Positions 8,429-64,000 of a stretch of DNA of 64,000 bases are shown piece by piece. The stretch is from contig NZ_RBIQ01000007.1 of NCBI RefSeq assembly GCF_003634105.1, forward strand, positions 744,001 to 808,000. The letters run 5' to 3'. The first letter of the stretch is position 1; every line of letters starts with the position of its first letter. Below the pieces are notes generated by a model that was not told the origin of the DNA, made no database searches, and saw only the letters and a list, made by a program, of their open reading frames with translations. A program made the translations under genes and the position numbers. The DNA comes from Maribacter vaceletii (GTDB lineage: Bacteria; Bacteroidota; Bacteroidia; Flavobacteriales; Flavobacteriaceae).

Positions 8429-10084
8429 TTAAAAAATGAAATATGTACTTAAAACTAATATAGAAACTACTATCCCAACAATCATGGCATATTTCCAAGG
8501 TGTAATATCAATTTCCTCTGTAATTTTTGGTATATAAAGGTCCTTTTTAGGATTTACTTTACCTATAATTAGCATAATAATTATGTTAACAGCAAACAAA
8601 ATTCCCATAATATGCAGAAAATGAGGATAGGCTTCTGCCTTAATTACACGTAACTTCTCTGGATCAGTTATACCATTAGATGCAGCTTCTGTTAGCGCTA
8701 TTTCAACAAAATATGGATTAAGCACTAACAAACTAAATAAATACATTGCTACACCTAAAGTAAGTACAATTTTTGCTGCTATAGCCGGTACTTTTTTAGA
8801 AAGCATACCTACTGCTACAACTGCCAAAATAGGAACACTTAAACTACCTAATGATTGTTGTATATAAGCAAATAAGCCATCTGGAGCATTAGCGATAAAT
8901 GGAGCTATAGACATAGATAAAATGGCTAGCACCATACCAAAGGATTTTCCTGCTTTAACAGATTGCATATCAGAAGCATCTTTTTTAAAGTATTGCTTAT
9001 ACAAATCGAAACCAAATAAAGTAGCGCTACTATTTAATAGACTATTAAAAGAGCTTAATACCGCCCCAAATAATACCGCTGCAAAAAAGCCTAAAAAAGC
9101 ACTTGGTAATACTTTTCTAACCAAAGCCGGATATGCTTGATCAGCATTCTCTAAATTCCCTTGAAATAAATGAAAAGCAATTATCCCAGGTAATACTACA
9201 ATAATTGGAATTAAGAATTTTACAAAACCAGCGAGAATCATTCCTTTTTGACCTTCTTTTAAACTTTTAGCACCAAAAACACGCTGTAAAATAGATTGAT
9301 TTGTTCCCCAATAATACATTTGAGCAATCATCATTCCAGTAAATATGGTTCCAAAAGGAATAGATGCCGTAACATCTCCTTTTGCATTAAACTTTTCTGG
9401 GTTACTTTCCCATAAAGTGCTAAGACCTTCTCCAATAGAACCTTCTCCAATTGCCATAAGTCCAAAAACAGGTATTAACAAACCCCCAATTAATAAACCA
9501 ATAGCGTTTATTAAATCGGAAACAGCTACCGCTTTTAGTCCTCCAAAAATTGCATAGATACCCCCAATAATACCAATGGTCCATACAGATATCCAAATAA
9601 CAGAATTTTGTGAAACACCCAATAATTCAGGTAAATCGAACATGGTACTAAACGCTAAAGAGCCAGAATATAATATGGTTGGCAACAATACGATACCATA
9701 AGCGACCAAAAATAAAATAGATAAAATTGCTTTAGTTTGATGGTCAAATCTATCTTGAATAAACTCTGGAATAGTAGTTATCCCAGATCTCATATATTTA
9801 GGTAATAGGAAAATGGCGGTAAAAATCATAGCGATTGCCGCTAATGTTTCCCATGCCATTACAAGAACCCCTTCTGTAAAGGATTGTCCATTTAAGCCAA
9901 CTATTTGTTCTGCAGAAAGATTTGTTAACAACAAAGAGCCCGCTATTGTTATAGCCCCTAAACTTCTCCCTCCTAGATAATAACCATCTGCAGTTTTTTC
10001 ATCGGTGCGCCTTGTTGCATACCATGCTATAAAAGCTACTAGTATTGTAAATCCTAAAAAAGAAACAATGGACAACATTCCCAT
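8429..10084 (-). CDS. sodium/solute symporter (SSS/SLC5 family)
   Basis: 551 residues with about 14 predicted membrane helices. The N-terminal block ([20 protein letters not shown], around 31-50) is the TM1/TM2 signature of SSS proteins, followed by [15 protein letters not shown], which resembles the sugar-transporting SGLT/YidK branch. It moves a small solute into the cytoplasm with sodium. The gene lies 11 bp after the alpha-galactosidase and 19 bp before glpK, clearly in one operon. Since the alpha-galactosidase has no signal peptide, the best inferred cargo is an intact galactosyl-glycerol. Galactose or another small galactoside is the alternative. Confidence 0.9.
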
Positions 10085-10095
10085 ATTTTAAAAAT

Positions 10096-11865
10096 TTAAG
10101 AGGTTATTTTATTAAGTTTAATAATACCACAAGAAGGCACATGTAATGCCAAAACACCTTTTTTTAAATCTATTTTTTGGGTTGATGTAATTTCTCCTTG
10201 GCAATTAAAAATAGTACAATTATAGCTTCCAAAGTTACTACTGCTATTAATTATTAATTGATTTTCTAGTTTTGCATTTAATATATGGATAGTTTCATCT
10301 CCCTTTTCAATAGTAGCCACAACAGGATCGTAAATACCAATAATAGTTTGGTTTCCTTTTGATATTCTTTTGGTTGAATAATTAGCTAATGGTTTTGATG
10401 GTGTAAAATTACCATTCATAAAAATATCTGCATTTTCATTCCAATAATTCGTGTAAAAAGCAATCATTTTTTTCTCTTCGGCTGTTGCTTTAGATAAAAA
10501 TATGGAAAGTTGCGGGACACCAAAAAAAGTATTTATTAACTGTAAAGAGGCAATCTCTAAAGGCTCATTCTTATGCCAAGTAACCATATCTGAATGTACA
10601 GCTGTGTTTCCACATAGCATTTTAATATCTGCTATTCTTATTCTATTCATTGTAGCATCTCCTGGACAATCAAAAGCCCTAAACATATTGCCGTATTTAC
10701 GCATTGCCGGTCCTGTATATTTTTGACGAAATTCTATAAACACATCTGGATTTATTGCTTGTAATGCAGTTGCAACATCGGTTAACAAACGGTCTACTGC
10801 TGCATTAATAGAAGCATAATCTCTACCGTTTTCTTTATGTATTGGTGTGTCTTTATATAATCTAAAATCGTCAATAAAATCTAACTTAAAACCATCTAAA
10901 TTCCAATCTTTTAGAGCATTTGTATAAATATTTATAAGATATTCTCTTACCTCTGGATATCTTGGGTCAAAAACTGGTGCCCAACGGTGATCTTCAGTTA
11001 AAAATTTGCCTTTAAATTTTTTATAAGCTTCCGATTTTTTTCCGCAAAAAGGAACCGAATACCATAAAGCTGCTTTCATTCCTGTTTTATGAATATCGCT
11101 TATATATTCTTTCATATTAGGAATACGGTCTGGTTTCCAATCACCAGTATAATCGTACCCTCTATTGTTATCGTTTGTTTGCCAGCCATCATCTATAATT
11201 ACGGCTTTATATCCTAAATCATAGGCTAACTTGCATTCTTCTAATAATAAATTGCAATCTAAATCTTGATGAAACTGATACCATGTAGAGTACAATGGCA
11301 TTTTTGCTATTGCAGGCACATGTGTTGGCTTTAAATTCTCAAAACTTTCCCACCATTTAGAAACCTCTTTTAAACTTTCCGAAAAATGGATTGGCCTTGT
11401 ATCTAATCTTATTTGAGTTTTAAAGTTTTTTAATGCATAATGCTGTTCCATAAAAAAAGAAATATGACAATAAAAACAATTGTCTTCCTCCCTTAATCGT
11501 GCGTTCATTTCTAACTTATTAATTGCGTTAGAACATGCAAATGTTAGTACATTACTATCCTCATTGCCAAACAAATTAATAATTGGAGCATCTATAGAAA
11601 TTCTAGATTCCATATGGTCTAGTTCCCAATCTGCTTGAATTCTTTTATTAAAATCTGTTGTTGGTTTCCAAACCCCTTTTACATTAACTCCTGGAATTTT
11701 CCATTCTACAGTTATTGGTTTAGGAATAATTTGGTTATCACAGGTTACTTCTAAATCGTATATAAGTACGCCTTCTTCATCTTGCACCTTAGTTAAGGTT
11801 CCATTCATAGATTTTTGTAACCCTTTAATACGCAAATCTTCTATAGGACTAGTAGTTATATTCAT
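10096..11865 (-). CDS. alpha-galactosidase-like glycoside hydrolase (GH36, clan GH-D)
   Basis: 589 residues. A beta-rich N-terminal domain (1-170) leads into a TIM barrel: VIIDDGWQ (after strand 2), KAALWYSVPF, VFDPRYPEVREYL and GFKLDFIDDF, whose Asp329 is the expected nucleophile of clan GH-D. FRAFDCPGD further on probably carries the acid/base Asp. A short beta domain ends the chain. No signal peptide is visible, so hydrolysis should be cytoplasmic. It is first in the operon with the symporter, glpK and glpD, 164 bp after the SusD gene. The context points to alpha-galactosyl-glycerol as substrate (inference). It is shorter than the roughly 700 residues of many GH36 enzymes. A raffinose-type substrate fits the neighbours less well. 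Confidence 0.85.
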   Translation of the reverse strand: MNITTSPIEDLRIKGLQKSMNGTLTKVQDEEGVLIYDLEVTCDNQIIPKPITVEWKIPGVNVKGVWKPTTDFNKRIQADWELDHMESRISIDAPIINLFGNEDSNVLTFACSNAINKLEMNARLREEDNCFYCHISFFMEQHYALKNFKTQIRLDTRPIHFSESLKEVSKWWESFENLKPTHVPAIAKMPLYSTWYQFHQDLDCNLLLEECKLAYDLGYKAVIIDDGWQTNDNNRGYDYTGDWKPDRIPNMKEYISDIHKTGMKAALWYSVPFCGKKSEAYKKFKGKFLTEDHRWAPVFDPRYPEVREYLINIYTNALKDWNLDGFKLDFIDDFRLYKDTPIHKENGRDYASINAAVDRLLTDVATALQAINPDVFIEFRQKYTGPAMRKYGNMFRAFDCPGDATMNRIRIADIKMLCGNTAVHSDMVTWHKNEPLEIASLQLINTFFGVPQLSIFLSKATAEEKKMIAFYTNYWNENADIFMNGNFTPSKPLANYSTKRISKGNQTIIGIYDPVVATIEKGDETIHILNAKLENQLIINSSSNFGSYNCTIFNCQGEITSTQKIDLKKGVLALHVPSCGIIKLNKITS

Positions 11866-11949
11866 GCTCTTCTATTATTATGTAGCTATTTTTTAAACTT
11901 TTAAAAGACTAAAAGTCTCCTCTTTTATGAGGAGTTATATTTAGGAAGT

Positions 11950-11998
11950 TTATTGGTAATAAAAGCCAAGTAGTTCTTTTATATCCTACTTGGCTTTA
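11950..11998 (-). terminator. rho-independent terminator after susD (may be an attenuator)
   Basis: A 12-bp perfect stem (11962-11973 and 11986-11997), followed on the minus strand by a TTTTATTA run. It lies 32 bp after the SusD stop and ahead of the alpha-galactosidase gene. It would lower readthrough from the susCD pair into the catabolic genes. A second small hairpin (CTCCTC...GAGGAG, 11917-11934) follows in the leader of the alpha-galactosidase gene. Confidence 0.75.
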
Positions 11999-12029
11999 TC
12001 AACTCAACAAACCAAAACTCTTTAATAAA

Positions 12030-13619
12030 TTAATACCCAGGATTCTGAACCAAATTAGGGTTAGCATCCAACTCTGAACTTGGTATCCAAACTAGCTCAT
12101 GCTTATTAGCTTGGAATACACCGCCACTTAAAGACTTTGGATTACTACCATGTAAAGAATTAGCTCCTAGGTAATCATCTGCTAATCCCCAACGAACTAA
12201 ATCAAAGAAACGGTGGCCCTCTCCTGCTAATTCCATGGCGCGTTCTTCTATAATAGCAGTTCGCATATCTTCTGGGCTTAAGTTTAAAGAAGCAACACCA
12301 TCTAAGTTTGCTCTTAATCTTACCATATCTAAATACGTAGCAGCATCACCAGTCATATTATCTTCATTTAAAGCCTCTGCTAACATTAGTAAAACATCTG
12401 CATATCTAATAATTCTCCAGTTGTTACCTACATTAGTTCCTAAGAAATCTACTTGATCTCTTGTTCCTAAATCCATTCCAGAATATTTTTTACCAAAAAT
12501 TGGCTCTACTCCTGCTGCTGTAGCAATTGTAATATCTCCTGCAACTGTAGCATTATCCTCATCTGTAGTATCTCCTAAATCTTGAGCAAAAGGAAGTCCT
12601 CCATATCCTGTAGCTCCAGGGTAATCATAAACTAAAGTTTCGTTTCTACGAACCGTATCATTATTAGCTTCAAATAAATCTTTTAACCAAGGGTTAATTA
12701 CGTGTCCTTTATCTGGAGATTTAGATGGTGTTGCGTAATCTATATGATAGTTACCCATTGTACCTGTACCAGGAATATCTGTTCCCCAAATAAAAGTTGT
12801 TTGCCCTAAGAATTGTAATTCAAAAACTGACTCTTGGTTATTTTCATTTACATCAGAAAAGTTATCTCCATAAGCTTCCGCAGGTAATAAGCTGTATTTA
12901 CCTATTAAAGATGCTAATGTTGTTCTTGCATTAGTCCAATCTTTCATGTACAAATAGCTTTTACCTTTTAAAGCTGTTGCAGCACCAGAAGTTGGTCTAC
13001 CAGCATTATCGCCTTCCCAGGTTTCTGGCAACATAGCTTCTGCCATTTCTAAATCTGAAATTATTTGCGCCCAGATTACTGAAGATTCTGCTTGATCTAC
13101 CAAAAGATTATCTAAATCTGGTAACTCTGTAATTAAAGGTACACTACCATAAAGGTTCGTTAAATACCAATAATCAAAAGCTCTTAAAAAATAAGCCTGA
13201 CCAACAAGACCATTACGAACAGCCTCATCTGCAATTTGCTCTTCGCCAATGTTTATAATAACATTATTACAACGTGCAATAGATTTATATAGTTGTTGCC
13301 AAGGTTCTGTTGCCCATCTATCTCCTGGATTTCCTAAAAGAGTAGCCATTGCGGTATTACTTCCAAAAGGAAAAACATTAAACTCATCGGATCTTTGAAT
13401 TGCTCCTGTATGTATAATTCTCCCCCAGAAGAATGTATCTGTTATTGGGTGAAAAGCGCCATTTACAGCAGACTCTACTTCTGCTACTGAGCTACCAAAA
13501 TTGGCAGTAGAAGTAGCATTGTTATTAGATTGATCTAACAACTCTTCGGAACACCCTCCCAACATAACTGCTGCGGCAAGGGTAATAACCATTGGATTAA
13601 ATTTGAATATATTTTTCAT
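12030..13619 (-). CDS. SusD/RagB family surface glycan-binding lipoprotein
   Basis: 529 residues. The signal peptide ends in a lipobox (LGGCSEELLD, Cys23), placing the protein at the outer-membrane surface. The YFLRAFDYWYLTNLYGSVPL segment (around 144-163) is the typical N-terminal SusD TPR region. The IIRYADVLLMLAEALNE block (around 403-419), ERAMELAGEGHRFFDLVRWG (456-475) and the terminal NPNLVQNPGY are SusD signatures. It pairs with the SusC gene 16 bp upstream and captures ligand for the TonB-dependent channel. The locus context suggests a galactosyl-glycerol or related small galactoside as ligand (inference). Confidence 0.95.
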   Translation of the reverse strand: MKNIFKFNPMVITLAAAVMLGGCSEELLDQSNNNATSTANFGSSVAEVESAVNGAFHPITDTFFWGRIIHTGAIQRSDEFNVFPFGSNTAMATLLGNPGDRWATEPWQQLYKSIARCNNVIINIGEEQIADEAVRNGLVGQAYFLRAFDYWYLTNLYGSVPLITELPDLDNLLVDQAESSVIWAQIISDLEMAEAMLPETWEGDNAGRPTSGAATALKGKSYLYMKDWTNARTTLASLIGKYSLLPAEAYGDNFSDVNENNQESVFELQFLGQTTFIWGTDIPGTGTMGNYHIDYATPSKSPDKGHVINPWLKDLFEANNDTVRRNETLVYDYPGATGYGGLPFAQDLGDTTDEDNATVAGDITIATAAGVEPIFGKKYSGMDLGTRDQVDFLGTNVGNNWRIIRYADVLLMLAEALNEDNMTGDAATYLDMVRLRANLDGVASLNLSPEDMRTAIIEERAMELAGEGHRFFDLVRWGLADDYLGANSLHGSNPKSLSGGVFQANKHELVWIPSSELDANPNLVQNPGY

Positions 13620-13635
13620 TTTTTTGTTTTATGAA

Positions 13636-16600
13636 TTAGAATTTAGCCTGTACTCCAAACATGAATGTTCTAGCATTTGGATATGCTCTAGCATCTAGAC
13701 CTCTACCTAAAAGAGGGTTAACTTGAGCTCTTAAACCAGGAACGCCTGTATTTCTGTTAGCACGACCACCATTTGTTGAAGAAACATCTGGATCGTAACC
13801 ACTATAATCTGTAAGTACAAATACATTCTGAATATTAAGTGATACACGTAGACTTTTTACCCAGTCTAAACCTAATGTACCTTCTTTAAAGTTATAGCCT
13901 ATGTCTATATTCTTAAGTCTAAAGTAAGAACCGTCTTCTACGAAAAATGAAGAAGGTGCTTTGTTCCCTGCTGCATCAGAAATAGATGCTCTAGGAATAT
14001 TTGTATCTGTATTAGAAGGTGTCCATGAATTTAAAACTTCTGAAAGTTTACCACCATCTTGCCATAAAACACTATAGTATCTACTTAAGTTGTAAATTTC
14101 ATTACCTTGAACCCCATTAAAGCTTAAACCAAAATCAAAGTTTTTATACTCTCCATTAAAGTTAATACCATATGTAAAATCTGGTGTTGGATCTCCAATA
14201 TTTGTAATATCATCTGCAGTAATTCCTGCAACACCATCTGTATCTATTCTAACAAAATCTCCTGTAGCTGGATCTACTTTATTTTCTACTCTGTATCCAT
14301 AAAATGCACCTATTGGTTGGTTAGCTCTTGTTGCATTTACTACACGTAAATCTTCATCAATTGCTGGACCTAAAATTGTGTTAGGAATATCTCCTGCTTC
14401 ACTTTTTAAATTAAAAGAGAAATTAGTACCTGCAGTAAAAGTAAAGTCTCCATCTGTTTTACGGTAAGCTAAATCCCATTCTAAACCTTTATTAATTAAT
14501 GTACCTGCATTTCTTGTTACAGGTAAACTAACACCACTAGTAGAGGGAACATTAATTGCTACCAATACATCTTCTATATCCTTAGTATAATAATCCATAG
14601 AAAAAGTCATTCTATTATCTAAGAATCCTAAATCTACACCGATATCAAAAGTTTTTGTTGTTTCCCAAACTAAGCTTGGATCTGCCAAAGTAGTTTGTGC
14701 AAGACCATTTGCTAAACCTCCACCAAAAGAAGTATTTGATGCATTAGCTGCAAAAACTGCTTGTGTAGGGTAAAAAGTATCTGGATAAGAACCTAATTCC
14801 CCGTAAGAAGCACGAAGTTTAAAATAATTTACGGTTTCAGATTTCCAAAAGTTTTCATCACTTATATTCCAACCTGCAGAGAAAGAAGGAAAATAACCCA
14901 CTCTATTTTCTTCTGCAAAACGAGAAGAAGCATCTCTCCTAAGCGTAGCAGAGAATAAATATTTACCATCATACCCATAATTAAGTCTACCAAAATAAGA
15001 CTGTAATGCTGCATTGTTGTTTTCTCCTAATAACACCAATTGATCACTAGATGGTAATGCACCTACATTTCTTATTACGTTAGATGGAGTTCCTTGGCCA
15101 AAAACACCATTACTTTTCTGAGTCTCCTTAAAGTATGTATATCCTAATACAGCAGCTACCTTGTGCGCATTAAATTCTTTTTCGTAAGACAACGTTGGCT
15201 CTACTTGAACATTAACATCTTCTTGCCTATGATCTGTAAGATCATTCTCTGTATTAACATTTAATACAGCATCTACAGTACTCATAAAATATGTTGGTGT
15301 AAATTGATACGAATTTCTACTTGTATAATCAATACCAAAATTTACAGATGCTTTTAAACCTTCTATAATTTCATAATCTAATTTTGCGCTTCCAAAAATA
15401 GTCCTTGTAGTAACTTGGTTATCTTCTAAACTTGCTAAAGCAAATTGATTAACACCACCTGGACCATGTATTGCAGAAGAAGGTCCTTCAAAACCACCAT
15501 CATTAGCACTATTTCTAAAAGCTAAAGTTGGTGCAGATGCTCCATCCCAACCATACCAGTTATTTTCTTGAAGCTTTCCTTCTGTAATACCTAAAGATTC
15601 TGTTAAAGTAAATTTTCCAAAATCGAACCTACTGTTTAATCTAAAGTTAATTCTCTTAAAACCTGAACCAACCAAAATACCGTCTTGGTTAAAATAATTT
15701 CCAGAAGCATAGAATGAAGAATTTTCTCCTCCTCCAGATACAGAAACACCAATCTCTTCTACAATTCCAGATTTTAAAGATTCATTTTGCCAATCCGTAT
15801 CTACACCATTCCATGTAACAGAATTTGCTTCGCCATCATTTATGAAACGTTGGTTTAGATAATCTGCATATTGTGAACCATTAATATAATCTAGTTTCTT
15901 ACTAGGGGTATCAAAACCAATTCTAGTATTTAAAGTAACCTCTGTAGCTCTATTTTTTTGACCATGAGTTGTTTTAATAAGAACTACACCATTGGCTGCT
16001 CTAGCACCATAAATAGCAGATGCAGCTGCATCCTTTAATATAGAAATATCTTGAATATCGTTTGCATTAACGTAATCCATGTTATCTACAAAAAGGCCAT
16101 CTACAACAAATAAAGGAGAAGCATTACTTAAAGAGTTTACCCCTCTAATAAAAACATTTGCTTTACCACCTGGTTGCCCACCAAAACTTTCTACTTGTAT
16201 ACCAGATAACTTACCTTGTAATGCCGTAGTTGGGTTACTTGCTACTACATTTACAATAGCATCTTTCTTAATTGTAGAAACAGAACCCGTTAGTTCTCTT
16301 TTGTTTGAAGTACCGTAACCTACGATTACTACTTCATTTAACGCCTGTGCATCTGCCTGTAAAGTTACACTTAAGGTCGTTTGTCCGTTTACAGCTATTT
16401 CTTGAGTAGCATACCCAATATAACTAAAAACAAGAACACCGTCTTCGGCTACGTTAGCAATAGTGTAATTACCATCAAAATCTGTAGTAACACCATTTGT
16501 AGTTCCTTGCACTACAATGTTAACACCTGGCAAAGGACCATCTACGTCTGATACTGTACCCGAAACCTGTGTAGTCTGCGCAATTGTGATGTAACTGAGA

Positions 16601-56976: not shown

Positions 56977-59900
56977 TTATTTAAAATTATAAATTAACCC
57001 AAACTGAATAACATTAGAATAGAAATTTTTAATAGTGTAAAATTCATATCCAAGGTTAATCTTTGTAAAGTCTGTTATTCTATAAGACATATCTCCTATA
57101 TATCTTTGAAAAGTAGGCTCATTTTTTTCTAAAAAGAAACCAAAGTCTGCAGAGAAGTTAAATTTACTTTTATCTGAACCTAACACTACTAAAGCTCCTG
57201 CACCTCCATAAATTCTTTCTTTAGCCATCCAATATGGGTAACCAGACCTACGGTCTGTACTACCAATACCCCCTGCCCCTTCTATCATTGGGTTAAGCTT
57301 AAATTTATTAAATTTAATAAATTTGTACTCTAACCTACCCATTAGCATGTGGTCATTTTCTTTATCTGTATAATAATTAGACTCTAATGAAATTATAGGC
57401 ACAAACTTCTTGCCTATTACCATTTCTTTATAACCATTAAACTGTACCCTGTAAATATCTAAAGAATAACCTGGCCCGGATCTTACTGGAAAAGCGTCTA
57501 ATTGAAAAGCCGTGAAATTATCTTTCTTAGAATAGTTTAATTCTGCTCCTGCTTGAAAAAAGAACTCTCCAAAATTGTCTCTCTCTGCTCTTCCTTTTAA
57601 AGCATATTTATATTTTTTACTAGACTTTTTTGTAAATCTATATTCTGCCCCTATTAAATCATGACCTACATTAGATCTTCTTCTACGAAAACCATCTAAT
57701 TTATACATAGTACTTTGTACAAAAGAAAAGCTATGCATATCGCCTTTAGTGCTATGAGTACTATAGGTTAGGTTATTTGTTAAAGCATTAAGTCTTAACT
57801 TATCATTAATACTAAAAGAACCAAAACTTATAGAAGAGCCTCTTTCTTGTCTCATTTTCTTTGCAACTTGTTTGCCAATTTCAGGGTCTAATAAATCGCC
57901 ATATTTTCTAAAAATCACTAATTGTTCTTTAAGCTCTAAGTCTTTTACTTCTTTATTAAGAGCTCTTTTATATTTTTCATCAATTTTATCACTTGGTATA
58001 CTAAATGCTATTCTAGCAGATTCCTCTATTTTTCCTTCATACAACATTATAGTAGCCATAAAAGAACGAACCTCATAATCTTTTGTATTAGCTGCTATAT
58101 ATGTGTTAAAAACCTCTTTTAACATGCTTATATTATTTGTTTCATATAGCCAAGACATTTTATCTTTAATAGCAATATTATCTGCACATTCTGCCCATTT
58201 TAATGCTTTTTTATAATTTCCATAATCTGCAAAAGACGCTGCTATTTTATTAGATAAGTGTTTTAATTCTTTAGAACAACTTTCTTCATTTTTAAGTTCT
58301 TGAACAGCCTTTCTTGTATCATTTGCTAATAATAAAGCTATGTAATATGGAAAGTCTTTTTCTTTCATTCTTTCAAAATCAGAAGAACTTAATACCCAAA
58401 AGTCTTTTGTTTCTTTATCTATTCCTTTTGCACATTTTTCCCATTCTAAAGCCTTATCAAACCTAAGATTATCTGCAAAAGTCCAAGCAATAGTACTTGC
58501 TAATTCTTCGTATTCCTTTTCACAAGACTTTAATTGTAATAATTCATCTATTAAATCTTTATCCTTAGTATCTATTAAATGATTTATATAAAGTGATGCG
58601 TTTTTAGAATTTGGCTGTATAGTTACTAACCGCTTTAATACTTTTTTTATTTGTTTATAATCTTGAGGTTCATTAAAATAATCTACATATTCCGTTAAAA
58701 CATTAGCATCTTTAGTTTTCCATTCTATTTGTCTTGTAAGCCATTGTTTACGAACTATGTTATTAGGATAACCTGCTATTGTATGTACTTTTCTAGATAT
58801 ATCTGCAGTATTTTTAGATTTGAATCTTAGGTAATACTTGTTTAAATTAACCCAAATTTCTTTTTCTCTTTTTTGCCAAACCATGTATGTTGCATACTCT
58901 TTCCATAAATCTGAACTTGCATTTGGGTTTGTTTTAAAATTTTCTTCTATTAAATCTGTAGCTTTTTTTAATTCTCCATCCGCAACAAATCTATTAACCA
59001 AATCTGCCATTGGAGCCATTAATTTTTTGTTATGCAAATACAATTCGTAAGCCTTATTTACCTCTGAAACCACAAGATTATCTGGTTTGTTTACACCTCC
59101 AGATTTACCAAATAAATCTGGCACAGAGATAGATGGGTTTCTTGTTTTTATAGAGAATAAAAAGCCATCTAACATTGCGGTTTTTTTAACTTCAACTTCC
59201 TCACCAGCTAAAAGTTCCTCTACTAACTTAATGTTTGCATTGTCTACATACATTAACCAAAAATTACTCTTATCCTTGTTTCTTGCATTATTACTCTCAA
59301 CTTCATAGAAACCATCAAAATTAGAATGTCTATAATACGCATAACGCCAATCCATGGTTTTTTCAGATGCTTTGGTTGCATTTATAAACCTTGAAAATGG
59401 ATGATCTCTCTTATATTCATAAATATGATCCTTAAAAGTATCTAACATACCTTTTTTACCATTTTTAGAATACCAGTTTAACTTGTGTTTATTTCTGTAA
59501 CTAAAATGACCACTAGTTGCAGCATTTGATGCATCAGGAATTTGATAAACATCATCTGGATGCACAAAATGTGTCCATATACCTGTACATATATACATAG
59601 ATTCTATAGCCCAAGTATTTGTTTTTTCTAATACATAACCACTACTTATTCTAGGAAAATCAAAAAACTTATCATTATAAGGTTCTGGATCAAACTCTCT
59701 ATTACCGCCCTCTTCTTTTGTTCCTAAATAAATACTTTGCATGTATTTAAGACTTGGCATTCCTTCATGTAACTTTGCTAACCCAACACTATCTATATAG
59801 TTTGATGGCGGCACATAAGAAGTTGGCAAATTTTTAAAGTCTAATACTTTCCATTTTTTTTCGGCAGCATCTAATCCTGTAACTATATATTTTGGATTTT

Positions 59901-60981
59901 TCCAATCCGATTTTAATAAGGAGACATGGTTATACCCATGAAAACCTAGTTCATGTCCACTTTTAAGTACATCTCTGGCAATCCAAGCACTAAGTTTTTG
60001 TGTAGCCCCATTTTTTACAACAGTATTTCTATCCCATTCTTTAAAAGTAAAAGGTGGTATAACATGTGCATTATAATCAAATGTAACATAAGCAGTATAC
60101 TCCATGTTTTGTTCTGATGCAAATTTTTTCATATCGGGCCACCAAACATCTTTTACGTAATCTGTTACCGTTATATTAAGTTCTGATTTAATAGGTTCTT
60201 TATAAATATTATAGGTAGGAGCTGGAAAATCATCTAAAAATATTGTTGCCACATTTGCTATTGGGTAAGGAATGCCTTCTAAACCTTTAAGGATACTAGA
60301 AAACATGAAACCACGCATACTTTTATTTAATAATGTGGCAGAATTAAAGAGTATAACTCTTCCTTTACCAATCTTATTTTCTAATAAAACAGGATAATCA
60401 TTATTATTAGTAGCACTTACTAAAACCTGCGCATTATCCGAAAAATTACGTCCAGAGAAGCCTAAATGTAATCCATCATCATTATACTTTAGCCCCTGCT
60501 TACCTGGAAAAATAGGAGATAAAAGATTGTATCCTTGTGCCGTTAAATTAGTTTCCCAATTTGCATCTGGATTAAGTCCTAATAAAAAAGCAATACGATT
60601 ATCTTTAATTGCTTTTGTTACATATAATGTTCCTCCTTTAGCAACAAAATTAATTAGTGATTTAATAGCTTTATCATTTAAAGGAGTGGTTTCATATATA
60701 CATAATACTCTAGTAGTTGGCGCAATTTTAGGAACCTCATTAAAGTCTTTAACATATAAATTTTTATAAGGTATTTTAGTATAATCTAATGCTTTATATA
60801 AATTTTTACTTTCTATAGCATTGCTATATTCATTTTTACTAACTAAAAACTGCACTAATGGAAGTTCTTTACTCTTTTCTGGAATACTAAACTCGTGTGT
60901 AAATCTGTATATATCTCTTTGGCAACCTATTGTTAATCCTAATAATAAGATTACTAAACCAAATTTTATATTTTGAATCAT
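56977..60981 (-). CDS. fused Pel-type deacetylase (DUF2194) / TPR / outer-membrane barrel protein
   Basis: 1334 residues. A lipobox-like signal (LLLGLTIGCQRD, Cys20) is followed by a ThuA/DUF2194-like N-terminal domain (40-235). A NodB-like deacetylase domain has IFLDDFPAP (Asp250, Asp251) and HGYNH (His348, His352), the metal-binding Asp and HxxxH expected. Then come helical TPR-like repeats (about 640-1040) and a C-terminal outer-membrane beta-barrel (about 1045-1334) ending in GLIYNFK. In Pseudomonas these roles lie in PelA (deacetylase) and PelB (TPR-porin). Here they are in one chain, which would join polymer deacetylation to export. The start overlaps the preceding membrane-protein gene by 4 bp (ATGA). 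Confidence 0.85.
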   Translation of the reverse strand: MIQNIKFGLVILLLGLTIGCQRDIYRFTHEFSIPEKSKELPLVQFLVSKNEYSNAIESKNLYKALDYTKIPYKNLYVKDFNEVPKIAPTTRVLCIYETTPLNDKAIKSLINFVAKGGTLYVTKAIKDNRIAFLLGLNPDANWETNLTAQGYNLLSPIFPGKQGLKYNDDGLHLGFSGRNFSDNAQVLVSATNNNDYPVLLENKIGKGRVILFNSATLLNKSMRGFMFSSILKGLEGIPYPIANVATIFLDDFPAPTYNIYKEPIKSELNITVTDYVKDVWWPDMKKFASEQNMEYTAYVTFDYNAHVIPPFTFKEWDRNTVVKNGATQKLSAWIARDVLKSGHELGFHGYNHVSLLKSDWKNPKYIVTGLDAAEKKWKVLDFKNLPTSYVPPSNYIDSVGLAKLHEGMPSLKYMQSIYLGTKEEGGNREFDPEPYNDKFFDFPRISSGYVLEKTNTWAIESMYICTGIWTHFVHPDDVYQIPDASNAATSGHFSYRNKHKLNWYSKNGKKGMLDTFKDHIYEYKRDHPFSRFINATKASEKTMDWRYAYYRHSNFDGFYEVESNNARNKDKSNFWLMYVDNANIKLVEELLAGEEVEVKKTAMLDGFLFSIKTRNPSISVPDLFGKSGGVNKPDNLVVSEVNKAYELYLHNKKLMAPMADLVNRFVADGELKKATDLIEENFKTNPNASSDLWKEYATYMVWQKREKEIWVNLNKYYLRFKSKNTADISRKVHTIAGYPNNIVRKQWLTRQIEWKTKDANVLTEYVDYFNEPQDYKQIKKVLKRLVTIQPNSKNASLYINHLIDTKDKDLIDELLQLKSCEKEYEELASTIAWTFADNLRFDKALEWEKCAKGIDKETKDFWVLSSSDFERMKEKDFPYYIALLLANDTRKAVQELKNEESCSKELKHLSNKIAASFADYGNYKKALKWAECADNIAIKDKMSWLYETNNISMLKEVFNTYIAANTKDYEVRSFMATIMLYEGKIEESARIAFSIPSDKIDEKYKRALNKEVKDLELKEQLVIFRKYGDLLDPEIGKQVAKKMRQERGSSISFGSFSINDKLRLNALTNNLTYSTHSTKGDMHSFSFVQSTMYKLDGFRRRRSNVGHDLIGAEYRFTKKSSKKYKYALKGRAERDNFGEFFFQAGAELNYSKKDNFTAFQLDAFPVRSGPGYSLDIYRVQFNGYKEMVIGKKFVPIISLESNYYTDKENDHMLMGRLEYKFIKFNKFKLNPMIEGAGGIGSTDRRSGYPYWMAKERIYGGAGALVVLGSDKSKFNFSADFGFFLEKNEPTFQRYIGDMSYRITDFTKINLGYEFYTIKNFYSNVIQFGLIYNFK

Positions 60982-62957
60982 AAATCAAAAATTAAATCGT
61001 TCAATTTTGAAGCATTTTCTTTGTTTATTATTTCATAAACGGTTAAAAAATCATCTTCAAAATATACCTTTACCTTACGTCCCCTATTTTTAAGAATATT
61101 TATTTGCGCATCTGTTTCTAAAGCGGTTTCTTTTTTAATTATAAAATTTTCATCGATAGAATTAGAATTGTTTTTTGGAATAAAAACAAAAACACTATTG
61201 GGTAAAATATTACTAGAATTCTTCTTCATTAATTCTTCATCATCCTTTATAGTTTGATAGATAGAATCTCTCTTAGAATATAATTTTGTAAAAATATTAT
61301 AATTGATAAAGTGATGCTCACTTTTACTAATACTACGCCCGTAATCTTGATTTACAACGGCATAAGAAAACGGCAAGTAATTACTAGACAAGTCATTATA
61401 AACTAATAAAATGTCTGTTTTAAGTTCATCTGTTTTTTTAAAATCATATTTAAAAAAACTATTTGTAAAATAGGATACAGAAATAAAAACGATAAAAATA
61501 CTTGCTATACTAATAATTCTTAAATTTCTTTTTTTAGGAACAGAAAGTTTAAAATAATATACCAATACACCACATACTATTCCTATAAGAATAACAATTA
61601 ATACGGACATAGATTGATAGTATAAATCTATGTCTATCCATGACAATTTTAACCATTTCAAAGCAATTATGGCATTAAAGAAAAGTAGAAATACCATAGC
61701 TGGATTCCATTTTTCTCTATTTTTTATAAATAATGGTAAAAGAACTAAAATTGTAATGCCTCCTAATAAAGAATATACAAGAACCAACTCATCTATACTA
61801 ATTATTAATTGGGGAAAATAAGTGTATACATCCACTAATATTATATTTTCTCTTAAAAAAGAGAAAAAAGAAGTTCCTGTATACCAACATGCTATTACAT
61901 GTACAATAGAAATTAAACTAATTGCTGAAACATAGCTTAATATACTCCTTAGAATATATGGCAAATTTTTCTTAGTAAATAAAAGTATTGCTATTACTAA
62001 AAAAATTGGCATAATTATTAAAGCCACAAATAAATTTATTAACCCTAAAGCAGTATAAACAATAAAGAACAGTGTAAAAAACTTGCGCTTTTCGTTTGTA
62101 AGCAATTCTGGTTTTACAGTAAATAACATAAGCGGTAACGCAAAACAAATAGCCATATATAAGGCATTATGCTCTAGTAATAAGTTTATGTTTATTGGTA
62201 AATATTTGTAAAAGAAGCCAAAGAATAGAACCCCTATCATGGGCGCTAAAAAATTAGATTTAGTGATTTTAGCTACTACCCAATATAGAATTAAACTTAC
62301 TGCAAAAGTTTCTAACAATCCAAAAGAATGTACTGCCATTTCTTCACTAATGCCTGTTATTTTGCTATAAAAATTTATTAAAGCATTTTCTCCTAGCATA
62401 ATAAAGCCAGGAGTAAACCATTTATTTTCATTAAACTGTTTTACAAATTCTAAATTCTGAATCCACAATCCAGATAATGTATATAAATCATTTTTTAGAA
62501 ATAAATATCTTGAAACAAAACAAGCAAAAGAAACTAAAAAAGCTGTTAAAACTTTAAAATTAATCCTCTTAGGAATAAAAAAGTTTTTACTCTTTTTTAC
62601 TTGCTTAGAAATATTTGGTCTTTCTTCCATAAACTTAAAAAAAGAAAGAAGAAAAGCTTTTCTCTTTTTTTGAATTTGACTAGCAGAATTATGAAAGCTT
62701 CCTAAATCTAAATATAAATAAAGAAGTAATCCTATGAACAAAGAGATTAATGTAAAAACATCATACATCTTAAAATGTACTAGTGCAAAAATTAATAATA
62801 ATATTGCACTCCCAAAGAATATAGAACGCTTTACTACATAATCTAAATTATAGGTTTTTATTGGTTGCTTTGTAACTATTTGATGTACAAAAAGTACTCC
62901 TAAGAAAAGTAGTAAAACCCTAAAAGGGCCTAATAGAACATTATCTAGAATTACCAT
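60978..62957 (-). CDS. polytopic membrane protein in Pel-like cluster
   Basis: 659 residues with about 14-16 hydrophobic helices (1-500) and a C-terminal soluble region (about 510-659, KKTDELKTDILLVYNDLSSN..). Charged loops are few. I do not recognise a family; the layout could be a GT-C-like or other polymer-linked integral membrane protein, or a replacement for PelD/PelE functions. It starts 3 bp after the stop of the GH114-type gene and overlaps the fused deacetylase gene by 4 bp, so it is part of the same operon and of exopolysaccharide synthesis or export (inference). Confidence 0.7.
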   Translation of the reverse strand: MVILDNVLLGPFRVLLLFLGVLFVHQIVTKQPIKTYNLDYVVKRSIFFGSAILLLIFALVHFKMYDVFTLISLFIGLLLYLYLDLGSFHNSASQIQKKRKAFLLSFFKFMEERPNISKQVKKSKNFFIPKRINFKVLTAFLVSFACFVSRYLFLKNDLYTLSGLWIQNLEFVKQFNENKWFTPGFIMLGENALINFYSKITGISEEMAVHSFGLLETFAVSLILYWVVAKITKSNFLAPMIGVLFFGFFYKYLPININLLLEHNALYMAICFALPLMLFTVKPELLTNEKRKFFTLFFIVYTALGLINLFVALIIMPIFLVIAILLFTKKNLPYILRSILSYVSAISLISIVHVIACWYTGTSFFSFLRENIILVDVYTYFPQLIISIDELVLVYSLLGGITILVLLPLFIKNREKWNPAMVFLLFFNAIIALKWLKLSWIDIDLYYQSMSVLIVILIGIVCGVLVYYFKLSVPKKRNLRIISIASIFIVFISVSYFTNSFFKYDFKKTDELKTDILLVYNDLSSNYLPFSYAVVNQDYGRSISKSEHHFINYNIFTKLYSKRDSIYQTIKDDEELMKKNSSNILPNSVFVFIPKNNSNSIDENFIIKKETALETDAQINILKNRGRKVKVYFEDDFLTVYEIINKENASKLNDLIFDL

Positions 62958-62960
62958 TTT

Positions 62961-63776
62961 TTAATTACTTTTAAATTTTGGAATAGTTTGTAAATCTATT
63001 TGTCCTACAAATGATGAAAACCCCATTTTTTTTAACTCCTTATTAATAATCGTTTTCATCTCCAAAGTTTCGGCATATTCTATTATATATATTGGTTTTT
63101 TTACTTGTTTTTTTGTTGCTCTTAAATTTTCTACAATTTGTTTTTTAGTAACCTTATCTCTTAACTTATATTCTTTTTTTTCAAAATTATAAGAGCTAAT
63201 AACAGATTCTATAAGGATAGCATTAGTTATGTTTTTAAAATCTTTAGCTAAAAAAAGACCTCCATTTTGAACCAAATAAATGTCTTTGTTTTTACTTTTA
63301 AGATTCTTTAAAAAACTTATAAATTCTTCTTTTTGATTATATAAGTTTCCCCACTTAGAAACATTATCTAAATTATCTAAAAACAAACCTTGAACGCCTT
63401 TTTTTTGCATTCTATTAATTTCATTTAATAATACCTGTTGTGCGTTCTTATTCTTTATATCAATGAAATGACTATTCCAAGTATCATTTTTCCCTAAGGT
63501 ATATGGTTTAATCTCTTTATAAAAAGAAGCATATTCATTTACTTCGGATAAGCTTAAATAAGCTACAACCTTTTTATTATTTTTATTAAATACAGCAATT
63601 TCTGATGAAGAATAATGTCCCGATTCTATAATTACTAAAGCATAGCCTTTTACTAATTCTGGATTTACTTTACCATAACAAACAAACAATTTCTCTTGTA
63701 TAGAATTATCCTTAGTATGCATCTGTGACACACCTAAAAAAGGTAATAAAAAGTAAAACATACTAATAAGCTGCAT
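62961..63776 (-). CDS. GH114-type endo-alpha-1,4-polygalactosaminidase (PelA hydrolase domain equivalent)
   Basis: 271 residues. A signal peptide (about 1-17) is followed by one TIM-barrel-like domain. VVAYLSLSEVNEY (69-81) and GVQGLFLDNLDN (around 128-139) match the conserved GH114 / PelA hydrolase motifs, and VQNGG follows later. In Pseudomonas this domain is the N-terminal half of PelA and cuts the Pel polymer. Here it is a stand-alone protein. It overlaps the PelG-like gene by 14 bp and precedes the membrane protein by 3 bp. It is probably periplasmic. Confidence 0.85.
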   Translation of the reverse strand: MQLISMFYFLLPFLGVSQMHTKDNSIQEKLFVCYGKVNPELVKGYALVIIESGHYSSSEIAVFNKNNKKVVAYLSLSEVNEYASFYKEIKPYTLGKNDTWNSHFIDIKNKNAQQVLLNEINRMQKKGVQGLFLDNLDNVSKWGNLYNQKEEFISFLKNLKSKNKDIYLVQNGGLFLAKDFKNITNAILIESVISSYNFEKKEYKLRDKVTKKQIVENLRATKKQVKKPIYIIEYAETLEMKTIINKELKKMGFSSFVGQIDLQTIPKFKSN

Positions 63777-64000
63777 AATAATGATAATCTAGTTTTTTAA
63801 AAAAGATAATAGTTTCTCTCAAAGTTAATAGCATAAAAAGCCCTGCTCCTACTAGCATACCTACAACGCTATATTCATAACTTATTACCCTACATAAAAT
63901 AAAGCCTACTATTAAATTAGCCAAACAAGCAATTAGTATAGAACGTAATGGTCCTTTTGGAGCATCTAGTGTAAATAGATATAAAGAGTTAAGCATACCC
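63763..64000 (-). CDS. pelG: PelG-like exopolysaccharide transporter, C-terminal part (cut by window edge)
   Basis: The frame stays open to the right edge of the window; the Met at 63996 is inside the chain. The visible 77 residues hold two membrane helices (LRSILIACLANLIVGFILC and VGMLVGAGLFMLLTL) and end FFKKLDYHYYAAY, which resembles the PelG C-terminus (LDY-type ending). PelG is a polytopic inner-membrane protein of the Pel export system. The rest, and probably PelF, lie beyond 64000. The call depends on the fragment and on its PelA/PelB-like neighbours. Confidence 0.65.
   Translation of the reverse strand, partial: GMLNSLYLFTLDAPKGPLRSILIACLANLIVGFILCRVISYEYSVVGMLVGAGLFMLLTLRETIIFFKKLDYHYYAAY

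Follow-up and report, generated by a model that had tools for sequence, protein, structure and literature searches.

Can the deacetylation of a Pel-type exopolysaccharide and its export through the outer membrane be the work of a single polypeptide? The question is raised by one end of a 64,000-nucleotide stretch of the Maribacter vaceletii genome (contig NZ_RBIQ01000007.1, positions 744,001 to 808,000 of the forward strand; this whole stretch is called the window), where closely packed minus-strand genes include an open reading frame (ORF) for a 1334-residue protein in which a deacetylase domain precedes helical repeats and a predicted outer-membrane barrel. The gene set, its recurrence and the predicted folds make it likely that this locus encodes a Bacteroidota Pel-type machine in which deacetylation and export would be built into one chain.

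A deacetylase domain, helical repeats and a predicted barrel in one protein

The fused gene and its parts, from the N-terminus of the product to its C-terminus, are as follows.

56977-60981, minus strand: 1334-residue deacetylase/repeat/exporter fusion with lipobox Cys20 (ORF, DUF2194, 9ZAU homology, AlphaFold2, Foldseek)
60277-60879, minus strand: N-terminal (CBM114-like) region, residues ~35-235 (aligns from residue 48 with the N-terminal domain of 9ZAU)
59362-60276, minus strand: CE26-type NodB-fold de-N-acetylase domain, residues ~236-540 (9ZAU alignment, seven residues)
59104-59334, minus strand: beta-rich stretch, residues ~550-626 (AlphaFold2 strands; presumably matching the third PelA_DA domain)
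57841-59082, minus strand: helical TPR-type repeats, residues ~634-1047, with a low-confidence stretch near 859-872 (AlphaFold2, repeat-protein profile matches, TPR in the homologue L144)
56980-57834, minus strand: predicted 16-stranded outer-membrane beta barrel, residues 1050-1334 (AlphaFold2, Foldseek, PgaA_barrel in L144)

The N-terminal half is recognizable from its sequence. Pfam DUF2194 covers residues 32-480 (244.7 bits; cut-off 30.4), and the match extends to residue 556-576 in two homologues. Residues 48-486 align with Bacillus cereus PelA_DA (PDB 9ZAU) at E=2.6e-40, or E=3.3e-76 by profile. According to the available text of PMC13254593 (all PMC papers are cited here from the portions of text that were available), this enzyme removes acetyl groups from alpha-1,4-GalNAc oligomers and is the founding member of the families CE26 and CBM114. 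When the residue numbers of that paper are carried over through the 9ZAU alignment (offset 25), B. cereus D262, D263, the HxxxH motif, R458, H488 and D491 correspond to D250, D251, H348/H352, R444, H474 and D477 of the Maribacter protein. The initial annotation, made from the letters of the window, had singled out D250, D251, H348 and H352 as metal residues of a deacetylase in the middle of the protein, and in the alignment they do coincide with Zn/catalytic residues of the B. cereus enzyme. Species genomes were scanned for encoded exporter relatives, which gave 134, 80 of which were kept as loci, and all seven named Zn/catalytic residues are kept in 71 of these 80 homologues. Moreover, a lipobox-like N-terminal pattern is present in 73 of the 80 sequences judged, the window copy included (one more sequence was too short), and the 1334-residue protein is a probable lipoprotein.

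Where did the deacetylase come from? The initial annotation proposed that it had moved from the hydrolase to the porin. That history is not what the homology favors: homologues of the domain include PelA_DA and a 609-residue Cetobacterium protein, both of which stand alone, and the available text of PMC13254593 assigns PelA_DA to CE26 and Pseudomonas PelA to a different family, CE21. Because the domain is of this Gram-positive CE26 type and stands alone elsewhere, it need not have left a Pseudomonas-type PelA, and fusion of an already separate deacetylase would be the simpler history.

The C-terminal half was approached by structure prediction. An AlphaFold2 model of residues 242-1334, built with 59 sequences, reached a predicted local distance difference test score (pLDDT) of 86.2 and a predicted template modeling score (pTM) of 0.46; therefore, the local folds can be trusted and their mutual placement cannot. 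Sixteen barrel strands fill residues 1050-1332 at a block pLDDT of 82-97, such that by prediction the protein has the repeats and 16-stranded porin that characterize a PelB-type exporter. In a Foldseek search with the model, ranks 1-5 are all polysaccharide exporters: BcsC takes three of these places, and the other two go to 4y25 (annotated as a bacterial polysaccharide outer membrane secretin, TM-score 0.69 by target length; we take it to be PgaA) and to one chain from the PelBC complex 9h80. By sequence, the window copy has a weak TPR_14 match (E=0.094) and no Pfam barrel match, and in the distant homologue L144 Pfam finds DUF2194, TPR and PgaA_barrel in this order, the last at E=0.0064, below its cut-off. 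The first description, of a single chain that holds a deacetylase, helical repeats and an export barrel, is thus borne out by the 9ZAU homology, the predicted C-terminal barrel, the Foldseek exporters and the domain order of L144.

Recurrence of the fused gene

A fused gene of this kind could in principle be a sequencing or assembly artefact, or its barrel could be something other than an exporter. Two features of the model speak for this explanation: the low whole-chain pTM leaves the placement of the domains uncertain, and from rank 6 the structural match list holds general porins such as OmpG, as well as TPR proteins. The recurrence of the locus speaks against it. The order pelF, pelG, GH114-type hydrolase gene, gene for a 659-residue membrane protein, exporter gene is complete in 59 of the 80 loci; ten loci are partial, nine of them cut by contig ends and one (L115) with broken or merged frames, and the remaining eleven hold the exporter alone, three on short contigs and eight with ~10 kb on both sides. 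The open frame is at least 1200 residues long in 73 of the 80 loci, and six of the other seven lie on short or cut contigs. In a phylum-wide sample of 296 genomes, searched at E<=0.001 for the exporter, E<=1e-60 for PelF and E<=0.001 for the 659-residue family, the three co-occur in the same 23 genomes; every one of these 23 has an exporter frame of 1268-1349 residues, and the match enters the barrel region in 21. A sample of the host's own family gave matches in 6 of 120 genomes, four full-length (M. vaceletii included) and two weak over short stretches. Since the same five-gene order and long frames recur, a chance or artefactual fusion is ruled out, and with polysaccharide exporters as the five best structural matches we consider the explanation as a whole, including a barrel that does not export, extremely improbable. 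A search for the same fusion across Bacteroidota, suggested when the locus was first annotated, has therefore found it to recur.

Some individual loci are irregular. In L115 (4049-9852, Flavobacterium davisii) PelF lies in two frames and the 659-residue gene in three, and PelG and the hydrolase share one frame; in L147 (9952-10815) the hydrolase gene is split over two open frames. Locus L114, from a record titled as a Bifidobacterium breve metagenome-assembled genome, holds a Flavobacterium-like operon copy and is probably a wrongly binned contig.

PelF, PelG and the hydrolases

The remaining genes of the locus run past the end of the window, and the sequence beyond it was taken from locus L003 (window position equals L003 position + 53999).

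60978-62957, minus strand: 659-residue polytopic membrane protein with a predicted GT-C-like fold and a C-terminal alpha/beta domain (AlphaFold2, Foldseek)
62961-63776, minus strand: 271-residue GH114/PelA-type hydrolase, apparently secreted (PF03537, PelA structures)
63763-65370, minus strand: PelG-like transporter of 535 residues, with only its C-terminal end, 63763-64000, inside the window (L003, homology)
65397-66908, minus strand, beyond the window: PelF (L003, NF038011)
67046-68113 (L003:13047-14114), minus strand, beyond the window: ORF of 355 residues from TTG for a GH114-type lipoprotein (L003)

With the fusion these make six minus-strand genes, in the transcription order GH114 lipoprotein, pelF, pelG, PelA-type hydrolase, 659-residue protein and 1334-residue protein. 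The pelG and hydrolase genes overlap by 14 bp, a gap of 3 bp separates the hydrolase gene from that of the 659-residue protein, and the latter overlaps the exporter gene by 4 bp; the ORFs of the initial annotation are thus confirmed in position, strand and near-touching or overlapping arrangement. The nearest public records of the exporter gene, at 92-93% identity, come from uncultured Maribacter (L042, L039).

PelF exceeds its curated NCBIfam cut-off (NF038011, 157.8 bits against 100). The identity of PelG is taken from a chain of homology through its relatives. Two of seven PelG relatives scanned pass the Pfam cut-off of PF16933, L066 with 34.2 bits and L144 with 29.8 bits, and the window PelG aligns with the L144 protein over its full length at 29% identity (BLASTP E=5e-61); within the PelG family, 24 of 37 members match PF16933 at E<=1, the best at 3.1e-13. 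A PF16933 search of the host's own genome for the PelG family gave nothing at E<=0.001. On this chain the window protein is taken as a divergent PelG, and both genes that were expected upstream are present beyond the window, PelF over its cut-off and PelG by way of its relatives. PelG (L003:9764-11371) and its relatives L066 and L063 also carry ~70-80 residues ahead of the PF16933 match that the profile does not have.

Two GH114-type proteins accompany these genes. The 271-residue protein exceeds the cut-off of PF03537 (61.2 bits) and matches the PelA structures 9cgy (E 9.8e-12) and 5tcb (E 5.3e-11), in agreement with its first assignment as a stand-alone PelA-type hydrolase. Its D134 and E190, which we take to be the catalytic positions, are present in all 63 aligned operon copies, the window included. 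In the GH114 lipoprotein encoded upstream, the order of the TM1410-like segments is swapped, and the protein is 30% identical to the GH114 protein of the Cetobacterium pel operon. Truncation of this ORF by mutation is not favored, because it aligns over its length with the Cetobacterium protein and shows the swapped TM1410-like segments. Among the 59 complete loci, 21 have a lipoprotein GH114 gene upstream in the same orientation, 2 have it on the opposite strand and 2 have it downstream; in 34 it was not found.

Is the polymer Pel? The PelF and PelG relatives might instead make another amino-sugar chain to which hydrolase and deacetylase have been fitted, and several observations lend weight to this alternative or count against a Pel-type machine. 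PelF is only 26% identical to Cetobacterium PelF. PelG is divergent: the window copy stays below the curated Pfam cut-off of PF16933 (10 bits against 29), and hhalign of the PelG family against Cetobacterium PelG gave no match. The counterpart of the CBM residue Asp231 of the B. cereus enzyme is N219, in a column that varies (D or E in 29 of 81 sequences), such that this CBM114 residue is not conserved in an otherwise alignable region. The barrel interior, roughly estimated from sequence, is only weakly acidic (-4 in the window copy, mean -1.3, negative in 34 of 59) and therefore gives little support for a cationic polymer. Neither PelC nor PelE is apparent among the operon genes, for which no family search was made. 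However, both processing enzymes belong to families whose characterized members act on alpha-1,4-GalNAc polymers, and a polymer other than Pel is in our judgment unlikely, without being far-fetched.

The 659-residue membrane protein

What does the 659-residue protein contribute? It has nothing above a curated Pfam cut-off, nothing in NCBIfam and nothing among PDB sequences; a PDB profile search with its family gave nothing at E<=10, and Pfam found only scattered weak matches on its relatives. The AlphaFold2 model reached pLDDT 84.9 and pTM 0.86; Foldseek ranks 1-15 are all GT-C enzymes (OST, DPY19, PglB, AftD, ALG12, AftA, AglB and ArnT) at E 3.0e-5 to 2.6e-2, eight of them at E<=0.001, with probability 0.99-1.00. 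Because the TM-scores by query length are only 0.34-0.39 for these matches, the resemblance of the model to GT-C glycosyltransferases is stated at the superfamily level.

On one hypothesis the protein is catalytically active: as a GT-C glycosyltransferase it would attach a lipid-linked sugar to the polymer on the periplasmic side, such that the product would be a decorated Pel-like polymer and not Pel. GT-C enzymes usually hold a catalytic acid in the first periplasmic loop, after a helix. Here D157 directly follows a predicted helix, D157 and D442 are invariant in all 66 close relatives, the window included, and the family is found in all 23 phylum-sample genomes that have PelF, all of which fits this hypothesis together with the uniform GT-C matches. 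However, the TM-scores are low and no sequence family of note was matched; among eight homologues taken from other families none retains D157, and one, L144, also lacks the D442xD444 pair. An active enzyme is a possibility that we rate somewhat short of even.

An alternative hypothesis is a non-catalytic, GT-C-derived scaffold that fills the structural position of PelD/PelE and links the fused exporter with PelF/PelG. Twenty sequences from four families share no invariant acidic residue, the host has no GGDEF domain, no PelD- or PelE-like gene was seen by eye in the operons read (no PelE family search was made), and the protein co-occurs with the exporter throughout the 23 genomes and overlaps its gene by 4 bp. 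Against a scaffold stand the invariant D157 and D442 of the 66 close relatives; its probability we place a little below even. The initial annotation had suggested that the protein may take over a PelD/PelE role. The GT-C-like predicted fold does not favor this as a statement of kinship, and neither the GAF protein of the Cetobacterium operon nor the hypothetical protein encoded there between DUF2194 and pelF matched it, by a single-sequence method so insensitive that it also missed the PelG relation. The 659-residue protein may still replace PelD/PelE in function.

A Maribacter clade with an altered deacetylase

The homologues that lack the full seven-residue set are nine Maribacter copies (L051, L052, L053, L056, L058, L060, L065, L112 and L084), all with H348R, H352D and H474N, which form one clade (support 1.0) nested in the Maribacter operon copies. 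The first eight, around 10000-13900 of their loci, have no pel genes within ~10 kb, and L084 is on a short contig. Five genomes that bear the variant (G075, G412-G415) gave no PelF at E<=1e-30, with completeness known for G075 only. Of the eight stand-alone copies, L058 is broken and the other seven are full-length. Since the differences among variant genes fall mostly at third codon positions (e.g. 9.5, 3.9 and 39.3% at positions 1, 2 and 3), purifying selection on the variant exporter is suggested, and the variant is apparently a maintained inactive enzyme on a porin. The catalytic residues track PelF in this set, such that the absence of pelF goes with a predicted loss of catalysis in a porin that is kept.

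Control of the operon

In Bacteroidota genomes that carry the operon, signaling by c-di-GMP may not be the common input. GGDEF domains were absent from 13 of 16 carriers searched, the host's own genome included, in a search that gave matches in 8 of 14 control genomes; the carriers with GGDEF are the two f12 genomes and the f30 genome, and all nine f23 genomes searched are without it. No gene for the c-di-GMP receptor PelD was seen in the operon, and a PelD_GGDEF search found none in eight genomes, with no match in any control genome either, which makes this negative uninformative. A c-di-GMP input is likely absent in this host.

Eight neighborhoods from f23, f12 and f30 were read for other regulators. 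Seven of them (L142, L143 and L145-L149, from other Bacteroidota families) have a ~540-residue protein between pelG and the hydrolase gene; the two scanned contain HD_5 by Pfam, and the others align with them and share the motif H(H/Q)EWx(N/D)GxG, which is reminiscent of HD-GYP domains. These HD_5-type loci belong to five f23 genomes without a GGDEF match and to two f12 genomes with six matches each. In all eight neighborhoods pelF is preceded by another frame with weaker PelF likeness, which matched DUF3492 in the two that were scanned, and response-regulator-like frames precede seven, one of them confirmed by Pfam. In L144, SpoIIE phosphatase, GAF-HD and STAS genes lie between the 659-residue and exporter genes (8962-12895), which suggests partner-switching control. 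Because the HD_5, response-regulator and SpoIIE/STAS gene content differs, control of the operon seems to differ by family.

Relation to known Pel systems

How does this arrangement compare with those already described? In P. aeruginosa (available text of PMC12022489 and PMC12141448) a deacetylase is likewise paired with a TPR/16-stranded-porin exporter and a GH-type hydrolase; there PelA (CE21 + GH166) and PelB are separate proteins that dock, whereas here a CE26-type deacetylase and the porin form one chain and the hydrolase is separate. When it binds the repeats of PelB, Pseudomonas PelA becomes a more active deacetylase (PMC12022489). With B. cereus PelA_DA (PMC13254593) the homology spans the N-terminal domain and the CE domain, and the seven residues are common to both; that protein stands alone on a transmembrane-helix tether, whereas the Maribacter protein is a probable lipoprotein fused to repeats and barrel and does not keep Asp231. 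In Bacillus the stand-alone DUF2194-type PelA_DA lies beside PelF and PelG (PMC13254593), and one list of down-regulated Fusobacterium nucleatum genes contains pelF and pelG together with a DUF2194 protein (PMC9848294). The Cetobacterium somerae pel operon (L151) keeps GH114, DUF2194, PelF and PelG together, as here; however, its DUF2194 protein stands alone at 609 residues, and the operon further encodes a GAF protein as well as hypothetical proteins of 292 and 305 residues, none of the 659-residue length. That an enzyme which processes the polymer can be fused with its exporter has a precedent in BcsZ-BcsC of Zymomonas, also an exopolysaccharide system (PMC7112194), although that is a cellulose system with a fused hydrolase in place of a deacetylase.

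The main text of the Pel surveys PMC7112168 and PMC7112194 does not mention Bacteroidetes, and that of PMC13254593 and PMC12141448 has no word with Bacteroid in it. Full-length PelA was counted in 16 phyla by PMC12022489, and Bacteroidota are not among the phyla named in its section 8. The literature searched, which leaves subscription papers and preprints outside, contained in its available text no description of the fusion, of the 659-residue protein or of a Bacteroidota Pel operon. As far as this literature goes, the locus is an undescribed, recurrent variant of the Pel system.

A model for coupled deacetylation and export

From the gene set and order, homologies, conserved residues, predicted folds and co-occurrence described above, we infer a substrate, a location and direction for each step, the activities and their coupling. 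PelF would polymerize a chain, probably of GalNAc, in the cytoplasm, and PelG would carry it across the inner membrane. The periplasmic chain would then meet the 1334-residue lipoprotein, whose CE26-type domain would partly de-N-acetylate it, whose helical repeats would guide it and whose own 16-stranded barrel would release it. The separate GH114-type hydrolase would trim or clear polymer. The 659-residue GT-C-like protein would be a fixed inner-membrane part, either decorating the polymer or serving as a scaffold in place of PelD/PelE. The contact between deacetylase and exporter, which in Pseudomonas involves the docking of PelA on PelB, would be built into one chain.

We also hypothesize, far more tentatively, that the Pel machine has been rebuilt throughout Bacteroidota: PelD/PelE would be replaced by a GT-C-fold protein acting on the emerging chain, deacetylation and export would be one molecule that feeds back on synthesis, control would have moved from c-di-GMP to family-specific HD-GYP-like, response-regulator and SpoIIE/STAS modules, and some Maribacter would keep a dead-enzyme porin for a new use after pelF loss. 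This wider scheme is conceivable, and we would not yet expect it to hold in full.

How deacetylation and export are coupled is still an unsettled point in Pel biology, and a single chain would give the coupling a fixed geometry that is solvable and testable. The locus also adds a membrane component, the 659-residue protein, that was not met in the available text of the Pel literature searched. Moreover, it would extend Pel-type machines to the Flavobacteriaceae and other Bacteroidota, in carrier genomes of which most (13 of the 16 searched) are without the GGDEF domain.

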